The notes under the pieces were generated by a model that saw only the letters and a program-made list of their open reading frames with translations, was not told the DNA's origin and searched no databases. Shown here piece by piece: positions 1 to 41,155 of a stretch of DNA of 64,000 bases (positions are counted from its first letter, which is position 1; every line of letters starts with the position of its first letter). The position numbers and the translations under genes are program-made. Source of the DNA: Dehalococcoidia bacterium (lineage in GTDB: Bacteria > Chloroflexota > Dehalococcoidia > Lucifugimonadales > Lucifugimonadaceae); NCBI GenBank assembly GCA_012959765.1, contig DUCO01000040.1:1-64000 (forward strand), given 5' to 3'.

Positions 1-437
1 GCTGGTGAGCCAGTCGACCTGACTGCGCCTTACTCCACCGATGATTCTGGAACTGACCCTGACGTCGTACCTGGCGCAAGCACTGCAACGATCATTTCGT
101 ATGCAGATGAGAACCAGCGTATGTCCGATATTGCATGGTCACAGACTTTCATCGGCACGAACAACGGTGATTCTTTGCTCGAAGATGGTGAAAAAACTGA
201 AATTACAGTTTGGCTAATGGATCGTGCGACAGCCACAGCTGTCGGTTCAGACGATTCAATTGACTACACAGAGGCAACTCCGGTAACGGTGGTAGTGCTT
301 CGGGTTTGACTGCAACAGACAACCTCGTAGTAAAAAACACCAGATTCGTACTGGAACTGACGCCACAGCTCGGTGCGCCGTTGACAGTTCAGCGTGCGAT
401 TCCGCCTGCCCTTCGGAACGTAATGAACCTGAACTAA
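1..437 (+). pseudogene. Archaellin-like (archaeal-type flagellin) gene, 3' part, frameshifted
   Basis: The window opens inside this gene. Frame 1 gives VISYADENQ-like text (here IISYADENQRMSDIAWS), then FIGTNNGDSLLEDGEKTEI, which resembles the conserved C-terminal half of archaellins (structural subunit of the archaellum, a type IV-pilus-like motor filament on the cell surface). Frame 1 stops at 307-309. The homologous C-terminus continues in frame 3 (GLTATDNLVVKNTRF, then LELTPQLGAPLTVQRA, ending VMNLN) to TAA at 435-437. One missing base near 282-287 (ACTCCGGT-AACGGT) would join the two parts. The closing motif matches that of a second remnant at 26652-26837. The class III signal peptide lies outside the window. 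A frameshift in a live gene caused by sequencing error is possible. Assignment to archaellin is from motif memory, not a search. Confidence 0.68.
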
Positions 438-765
438 AAACCTTCAGGAACGTTACAGAAGCTCTTATGTAGTGCATCTAGGAGTGTCCCGGCCGGATCT
501 CTCCAAGACCACAGGCCATCTTCAGGCCAGCCGTACAGCGCATCAGGCTTTCCCCACTCAGTAGGTACTGAGCGGGTGCCCCGAAGATTCAAATGCCCTT
601 CTCCTCCGGCGAGAAGGGCATTTGCTGTTTTAATCCGTCTGTGGTGTCGAAGGTACGGTTCAGGATTTGTCACAAGCTTCATGTAGCATGGCGTCTTCTC
701 GTCAGAGCATCATTTGTTCGAGAAGTCAGATCACAAAATACGTACCAAATCTAGGAGCCGTACGG
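438..765. other. Intergenic region after the archaellin remnant
   Basis: No convincing coding sequence. It contains the strong hairpin terminator at 591-627 and, just before the SDR start, the AGGAG ribosome-binding site at 753-757. The ORFs listed here in the track on either strand have no recognisable protein features. Confidence 0.6.
591..627 (+). terminator. Rho-independent terminator, 13-bp stem
   Basis: AAATGCCCTTCTC pairs perfectly with GAGAAGGGCATTT around a 7-nt loop (CTCCGGC), followed by GCTGTTTT. It lies about 150 nt after the archaellin remnant and before the SDR gene, so it probably ended the transcript of the former. Confidence 0.8.
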
Positions 766-1569
766 ATGGGGAATCTCGAAGGAAAAGTTGCGATAGTCAC
801 AGGTGCAGGATCGGTAGACAGTGGTGCTGGTGCCGGCGATGCGATTTCCATTCTTTATGCCCGGCAAGGTGCGAGCGTAGTTCTTTTCGACATCGACGCG
901 GTCAAGGCGCAGCGCACACTCGACGCCATTGAGAGCGAAGGCGGTAAGGCCGTCATTTTCGAGGGCGACGTGACAATCGCATCCGACTGCGAAAAAGCAG
1001 TAAAAACTGCCGTTGAGCAGTTCGGCGGTGTGCATGTTCTGGTGAACAACGTTGCCATTATCGCTCCAGGAACGGTTGTCGACGTAACGGAGGAGGACTG
1101 GGACAAAGTTTTCGCCGTGAACGTCAAGTCAATGATGCTAATGAGCAAGTATTGCATTCCGGAAATGATCAAAGCGGGTGGCGGTTCAATAATCAACTTT
1201 TCATCGAATGAAGGCCTGCGTGGACAGGACTGGCTCCCCGTTGTCGCATATTCAACTTCTAAAGGTGCAGCAATCACGCTGACTGCATCGATGGCTGTGC
1301 AGCACGGTAAAGACAATGTTCGTGTGAACTGCATTGCTCCGGGGATGATGTATACGCCAATGATTGCTCCGCACATATCGGACGAGGTCAGAGATTTGCG
1401 CCGCAGAGGTGCACCTCTTGGAGTTGAAGGTAATGCCTGGGATGTTGCAAATGCCGCGGCATTTCTAGCCAGCGATGATGCTCGCTGGATCACCGGTGTC
1501 ACCCTCCCCGTCGATGGCGGGCTTCTCGCAACTCAGTCGCTATCGCTTGTAAATCGCTTCATCGAATAG
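766..1569 (+). CDS. Short-chain dehydrogenase/reductase (SDR family)
   Basis: Cytoplasmic NAD(P)-dependent oxidoreductase of about 267 residues; substrate not predictable. The N-terminal Rossmann motif is present in a lengthened form (VTGAGSVDSGAGAGD). NNVA stands where NNAG is usual, the active-site Ser sits in NFSS, the catalytic YSTSK follows, and VNCIAPG is the usual downstream motif. The ORF track starts at 667, but ATG 766 is preferred because AGGAG ends 8 nt upstream and MGNLEGKVAIVTG is the normal SDR beginning; the extra 33 residues look non-coding. It stands alone between a terminator and the CocE-type hydrolase 85 nt downstream, with which it may be cotranscribed. Confidence 0.9.
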   Translation: MGNLEGKVAIVTGAGSVDSGAGAGDAISILYARQGASVVLFDIDAVKAQRTLDAIESEGGKAVIFEGDVTIASDCEKAVKTAVEQFGGVHVLVNNVAIIAPGTVVDVTEEDWDKVFAVNVKSMMLMSKYCIPEMIKAGGGSIINFSSNEGLRGQDWLPVVAYSTSKGAAITLTASMAVQHGKDNVRVNCIAPGMMYTPMIAPHISDEVRDLRRRGAPLGVEGNAWDVANAAAFLASDDARWITGVTLPVDGGLLATQSLSLVNRFIE

Positions 1570-40262: not shown

Positions 40263-40727
40263 CTAAAGCTGGGTCGATATCCAGTCGGCGATCTCGCGGA
40301 AATACAGAATTGAGATTATTCCGCCTGCAACCAGATAGGGACCATACGGTATCAACACTCGATTGAAGCCAAACAGTCTGGCGGCGTAGACGATTATCAC
40401 TACGAAACCACCAACCAGAACTCCAAGATACAGACCAAGCAATAGCGGGGCTAGTCCTAGAAAGGTTCCAAGTGCGGCCGAAAGCTTCACGTCGCCCCAG
40501 CCCATGATCGGCCGATTCAGACGATCGCCGATCCAGGCGAACGGGTAGAACACAGCGTATCCAACTGCAGCTCCTGCCAATCCCTCCCACCACTTGCTCT
40601 TGTAATTCCCGGGCTTGGGGTCTTTCCAGATCTCCAGCACCAGATCTATCGCCTGGCGAGTCATCTCACGATTCTCGCCACTGCGAGGATCGAAGCCGTG
40701 CTCGTTCAGATCACCGGGGAATCCCAC
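40263..40727 (-). pseudogene. Chimeric ORF: luciferase-like monooxygenase tail piece fused to prepilin peptidase C-terminus
   Basis: 154 residues. The first about 47 (FPGDLNEHGFDPRSGENREM, QAIDLVLEIWKDP) belong to a luciferase-like monooxygenase. From about nt 40586 on the text changes to an A24-type prepilin peptidase C-terminal half with membrane helices and the active-site MGWGDVKLSAALGTFLG. The first catalytic Asp and the N-terminal helices of the peptidase are missing, so it should be inactive. The full-length peptidase would process type IV pilins or archaellins; with the two archaellin remnants in this window it may be another relic of the same apparatus. Confidence 0.72.
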
Positions 40728-41048
40728 CCGAGCCGACTCCCCACATCAACCGACCTCGTGACATCTGATCGAGCTGGGCGATTCTGTGCGCAATCGAGAA
40801 CGGATCGTGATTGGGCATGCACGTAACGCCAGTGCCAAGACGAATCTGGGAAGTAACGCCAAGAGCCTAGGCAATCAGGAGATCGGGAGCGGGAATGTTC
40901 TCCCATTCCGCCGTGTAGTGCTCGCCGATCCACGCCTCGGAGTAGCCGAGTTGATCAAGATATATGAGTTGCTTGAGATCAGCTTCAAGCGTGTCGGCGA
41001 TATTGGCCCCGGCGGGTGCAGGGGCATTGTGAACAAACCGAGATCCAT
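40587..41048 (-). pseudogene. Luciferase-like (LLM-class) flavin monooxygenase, degraded
   Basis: From ATG 41048 the start MDLGLFTMPLHPPG is typical of the family. One base is missing in the G-run near 41007, after which ANIADTLEADLKQLIYLDQL and EAWIGEHYT follow. A TAG stands at 40867-40869 where a codon such as CAG is expected (DLLIA-stop-ALGVTSQIRLGTGV). A second frame change (one extra base near 40722) precedes GFPGDLNEHG. The 3' half is replaced by the prepilin peptidase piece. At least three inactivating changes are thus present, and the gene is dead. Confidence 0.8.
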
Positions 41049-41155
41049 TCCAGCCTCCGAGCAATTCACGAGAGTTCAATTTGAACCACATAGATGTTCG
41101 GGCATCCTACAACGGTTTGATCCGTAGCGAAGCCGCATTTGAGTCGAGCTACGGG

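Follow-up and report, generated by a model that had tools for sequence, protein, structure and literature searches.

An archaellin gene at the start of contig C40

The analyzed window comprises bases 1-64,000 of contig C40 from a SAR202 genome (G000; 2.63 Mb, 49 contigs, 92% complete) in the genus of Candidatus Lucifugimonas marina. For comparison we used the complete chromosome of the cultivated SAR202 bacterium Candidatus Lucifugimonas marina JH1073 (G013, CP046147.1). The window edge, where the original prediction had placed an archaellin-like gene, is the true start of the contig. It carries the 3' half of a genuine archaellin (arlB/flaB) gene, frame-broken at about 273-287 and followed by its flank:

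1-273, forward strand: archaellin (arlB/flaB) fragment in the first frame, covering the filament domain from its middle to its C-terminal part (tblastn, 86% identity to residues 82-172 of the 226-residue G013 orthologue; two-flank synteny)
273-437, forward strand: continuation of the archaellin in another frame, with the C-terminus and the stop codon (91% identity, residues 173-226 of the G013 orthologue)
438-630, forward strand: 3' flank of a duplicated archaellin unit, with an inverted repeat at about 590-624 (blastn, 93% to contig C18 of G000, 85% to both G013 copies)

Frame 1 (window 1-309) encodes ADENQRMSDIAWS and FIGTNNGDSLLEDGEKTEI, while frame 3 encodes TPQLGAPLTVQRA and ends with a stop codon at 435-437; the peptides quoted earlier as archaeal-type flagellin text are present in the DNA. 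With the intact Ca. L. marina orthologue as the tblastn query, window 1-273 and 273-434 matched in two frames. Because both segments are consecutive parts of one protein, the frame break, previously suspected near 282-287, is real in this assembly. With two frames instead of a single open one, the gene was classed as broken, not active. The break lies within 300 bp of the contig tip and inside a duplicated unit, the kind of place most prone to assembly errors.

Profile searches gave a divided answer. The window fragment alone matched no Pfam or NCBIfam archaellin model, since these models cover mainly the N-terminal part, but its orthologues scored as much as 61 bits against PF01917 (cut-off 29.5), and a closely related archaellin matched the solved Litorilinea aerophila archaellin 9i5h (E 4e-31). 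The missing 5' half of the gene lies, by synteny, at the end of contig C48, behind an ordinary gene for a thiamine diphosphate (ThDP)-dependent enzyme. This half scored 44.7 bits against PF01917 (cut-off 29.5) and holds, outside the window, the class III signal peptide that had been proposed as a check, with its hydrophobic helix (NQKG-ITGLETAIVLIAF; TIGR02537, 21.8 bits, cut-off 20). A related archaellin copy aligns to the mature start of 9i5h. Window 1-437 was thus confirmed as an archaellin gene with a frame break in a Chloroflexota bacterium, as originally read. The further fla/arl genes expected upstream were not there: the ThDP enzyme gene is the last one before the archaellin on C48, upstream by synteny, which ruled out an arl operon at this place, and motor genes were found nowhere in the genome.

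C48 and the window match the two flanks of one scattered flaB gene of Ca. L. marina (G013 C1:1643k; 85% DNA identity). Six tandem and six scattered flaB copies were reported in the 2023 cultivation paper on this organism (PMC10444878), and the window locus corresponds by synteny to one of those six scattered genes. An archaeal fragment binned with a bacterium might be suspected from the archaeal origin of the protein family. Both flanks are syntenic with a complete Ca. L. marina chromosome, though, and many genomes of the genus share these loci; the synteny ruled out contamination, leaving it a negligible probability. The other archaellin loci of G000 correspond by synteny to the G013 copies at 2755k (C18), 2630k (C7) and 2800k (C17). 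Three PF01917 matches in G000 exceeded the cut-off (C7, C17 and the C48 end), and the beginning of C18 gave a match at the DNA level.

The G013 copies at 1643k and 2755k form one 1,543-bp unit with 95% identity, and blastn matches of the 3' flank to C18 and to both G013 copies all stop at window position 630. The near-identical duplication of this 1.5-kb unit explains why the assemblies of G000 and several relatives break into contigs inside the archaellin. Within the two genomes (G000 and G013), the copies differ by a pS of 0.14 and 0.18, versus mostly 0.35-0.6 between orthologues; likeness within genomes exceeds that between orthologues in both cases, as gene conversion would give. Such near-identity at two distant sites per genome (L090 2490-4032 and L091 in G013) looks like conversion that is still going on. 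Separately, a short-chain dehydrogenase gene occupies window 766-1569, between the archaellin and a hydrolase at 1655; it is absent at the Ca. L. marina locus, where 189 bp separate the unit from the hydrolase region.

A peptidase remnant and the missing motor genes

A second relic lies 40 kb further into the window:

40263-40727, reverse strand: remnant prepilin peptidase (type IV leader peptidase A24; FlaK/PibD candidate), fused to a luciferase-like monooxygenase fragment (PF01478 positions 43-104 only)
40728-41127, reverse strand: broken rest of the luciferase-like monooxygenase, the neighbor of the peptidase in relatives (short open reading frames (ORFs) matching a 382-aa PF00296 protein of Ca. 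L. marina)

The single prepilin peptidase of G013 (254 aa) is flanked by an MBL-fold gene on one side and a luciferase-like monooxygenase on the other, and the gene order in the window is the same. The remnant lacks the first half of the peptidase, including the region of the first catalytic aspartate. Alignment to Ca. L. marina jumps by 1,244 bp at window 40585-40594; the missing sequence comprises this first half and the monooxygenase end, and what is left of the two genes is fused. At 40 kb from the contig start, the deletion is no artefact of a contig end. This half domain was the sole PF01478 match in G000, and we detected no intact class III (A24) signal peptidase in the genome.

Motor genes were likewise missing. 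A genome-wide profile search of G000 returned no PF00437 ATPase of any kind, and a joined ArlG-F-H-I-J query (1,752 aa) gave only chance-level matches in this 92% complete assembly. The same query recovered complete sets in five genomes of the genus (G004, G006, G009, G013 and G014), with ArlI-ArlJ matches of 84-99% identity. NCBIfam models recognized FlaI (618.8 bits, cut-off 550) and FlaH (257.6 bits, cut-off 194) in G013, while its ArlJ-like and ArlG-like genes scored below the cut-offs. G013 also encodes a second full-length PF00437 ATPase of PilB/GspE-like type (C1:995559-996710), shared with G004, G006 and G009 and present in no genome of the genus lacking arl genes.

In relatives, the arl cluster spans about 19 kb. 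Its site in G000 extends across two contig ends: C3 carries the S9-peptidase side and C5 the GroEL side. At the end of C3, the arl-side response regulator survives as its last ~24 codons, which run into a truncated IS3 OrfB (rve PF00665, 5.4e-23); C5 ends with IS3 OrfA (HTH_Tnp_1 PF01527, 2.6e-15) and the start of OrfB. Mapped onto another copy of the insertion sequence (IS), the two ends lie 22 bp apart, and G000 holds no second copy of this element closer than 87%. On the basis of this spacing and the lack of a closer copy, a single IS3-type element most likely stands in place of the roughly 19-kb cluster; two IS elements flanking an unassembled arl cluster would be a conceivable, less probable arrangement.

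Probable decay of the remaining archaellins

Archaellin decay extends beyond the window. Three of the four archaellin loci in G000 are broken (C7, C17 and C40), those on C7 and C17 well inside their contigs, while the visible 3' part of the C18 gene is intact and open. In the same stretches, 21 ordinary genes compared with G013 are intact; the broken genes are the archaellins, besides a handful of apparently spurious, partial or unresolved ORFs. Supporting evidence came from sites invariant among genomes with arl genes, counted by leave-one-out and not corrected for branch length: in group A, changes amounted to 4.6% in genomes lacking arl genes versus 1.0%, and in group B to 6.4% versus 2.7%. 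The dN/dS of the G000 copies against intact orthologues is low (0.08-0.18), which, together with the intact C18 part, indicates that any loss is recent. It points the same way as the invariant-site changes for group A, with group B near saturation. Aside from these loci, contig C4 (L207:3747-4514) has an uninterrupted frame of 256 aa whose product begins with an archaellin-like N-terminus (GAVAIEVAIIAIAGF) and is about 30% identical to archaellin. Its homologues occur in genomes of the genus with and without arl genes, and it is possibly a separate pilin-like protein.

G000 seems to have lost its archaellum. The window very probably holds two relics of it: an ancestor would have had the whole motor, which this lineage deleted, leaving archaellins that are decaying. 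The ancestor of this SAR202 genus very probably carried a complete arl operon with tandem archaellins, scattered extra archaellins and a single prepilin peptidase. The operon would then have disappeared from the window's lineage, in the simplest case through an event that left behind one truncated IS3-type element, and the peptidase lost its first half to a deletion. With motor and processing enzyme gone, the scattered archaellins, including window 1-437, would now be losing their reading frames. From these gene contents we infer that the cell makes no archaellum, that events took this order and that an IS caused the operon deletion.

We weighed this loss against a working archaellum whose arl cluster fell into the assembly gap between C3 and C5, with the archaellin frame breaks as errors. 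Both flanking contigs do end at the arl site, contig ends cut the cluster in the relatives G012 and G017 in the same way, and archaellin units lie at contig ends in several assemblies. Against a gap stand the 22-bp fit of the C3 and C5 ends on one IS map, a peptidase deletion deep inside a contig where the peptidases of G012 and G017 are intact, and two further archaellins broken away from contig ends while ordinary genes are not. An intact archaellum in G000 is therefore unlikely.

The scattered archaellins could also be orphans with a second use, for example as a pilin-like adhesin, for which the motor is no longer required. Intact orphan archaellins remain in G007 and G008, where no motor genes were found, and dN/dS among orthologues is well below 1. 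Such a use is nevertheless very unlikely for G000, with three of its four loci broken and neither a PF00437 ATPase nor an intact prepilin peptidase to assemble or process the products; moreover, the intact orphans have already changed at otherwise invariant sites (5.6-9% in the two of group B). Switchable surface genes would similarly show several broken archaellins, and the window break might then be reversible, by phase variation or programmed frameshifting. The break position differs in each archaellin, though, the window site has no simple repeat, and the motor and the peptidase are missing too, making a switch highly improbable.

Probable archaellum loss across the genus and comparison with known systems

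The comparison covered 19 genomes of the genus. Seven had arl genes and an intact peptidase, and 12 had neither, an association with a Fisher P of 2e-5 when kinship is ignored. The seven include two with clusters cut by contig ends: G012, with an ArlJ C-terminus (97%) at a contig start, and G017, with an archaellin array cut by a contig end. Taking ArlI absence in assemblies at face value was dropped on this evidence, and both were scored as having arl genes. Among the 12 others, the peptidase is broken in G000, G008 and G015 and absent in the rest.

Traces of the former cluster persist in several genomes. The emptied arl site lies on one contig in G010, with a response-regulator relic 50 bp after the S9 gene, and in G018. 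In G008 and G015, a regulator relic directly adjoins either an IS3 element or an unrelated gene. Archaellin relics of 40-50 codons occur in G001, at the window's own locus, and in G011. A further observation concerns contig C18 of G008 (L171 4500-6666): next to the former arl site, the regulator relic precedes another IS3 element and a gene for a sugar-nucleotide epimerase.

On a tree of 17 genomes built from four genes beside, and linked to, the arl site (G007 and G016 were left off), the trait needs six changes, at least four of them forced by well-supported branches, and grouping all genomes lacking arl genes as one clade was rejected. Relics at the old sites identify the changes as losses. 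Close relatives thus appear to have lost the archaellum several times independently, at least six times on the 17-genome tree. It is very unlikely that, after repeated loss, some orphan archaellins (C18 of G000 and the G007 and G008 copies) were retained in a new role, at the surface or secreted, that needs no motor.

Bacterial archaella have so far been described as a successful transfer from archaea, and this genus offers the other side. Losses in ocean bacteria with readable breakpoints and relics would allow tests of when and where SAR202 cells no longer profit from swimming. Archaellin matches alone do not equate to an archaellum, and surveys of flaB presence would count relic-bearing genomes like G000.

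Bacterial flagella are lost through IS insertion, deletion and pseudogene decay. The archaellum case resembles this in that structural and assembly genes are lost or broken, with leftovers at the old sites, but the lost machine is here an archaeal-type motor that Chloroflexota acquired from archaea. While the decay itself is ordinary, the open-access literature searched yielded no description of repeated archaellum loss, whether in bacteria generally or in SAR202.

Chloroflexota archaella, called little-studied in the original prediction, are better documented than that: flaB copies were reported in 2023 (PMC10444878), and function, structure, swimming and transfer were published in 2025, with mention of incomplete second loci (PMC12488501). 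The closest known counterpart of the window gene is the scattered flaB of Ca. L. marina at G013 C1:1643k (PMC10444878; CP046147.1), with 85% identical DNA over window 1-630 and the same C-terminal sequence. That gene is intact and accompanied by a complete arl operon and a prepilin peptidase, whereas the G000 copy is broken and neither was found; even in Ca. L. marina, no archaella were seen (PMC10444878). Litorilinea aerophila ArlB (PDB 9i5h; PMC12488501) belongs to the same family and shares its mature N-terminus with the intact orthologues. It forms a working filament in a genome that contains the machinery; its counterpart in G000 is very probably a relic.
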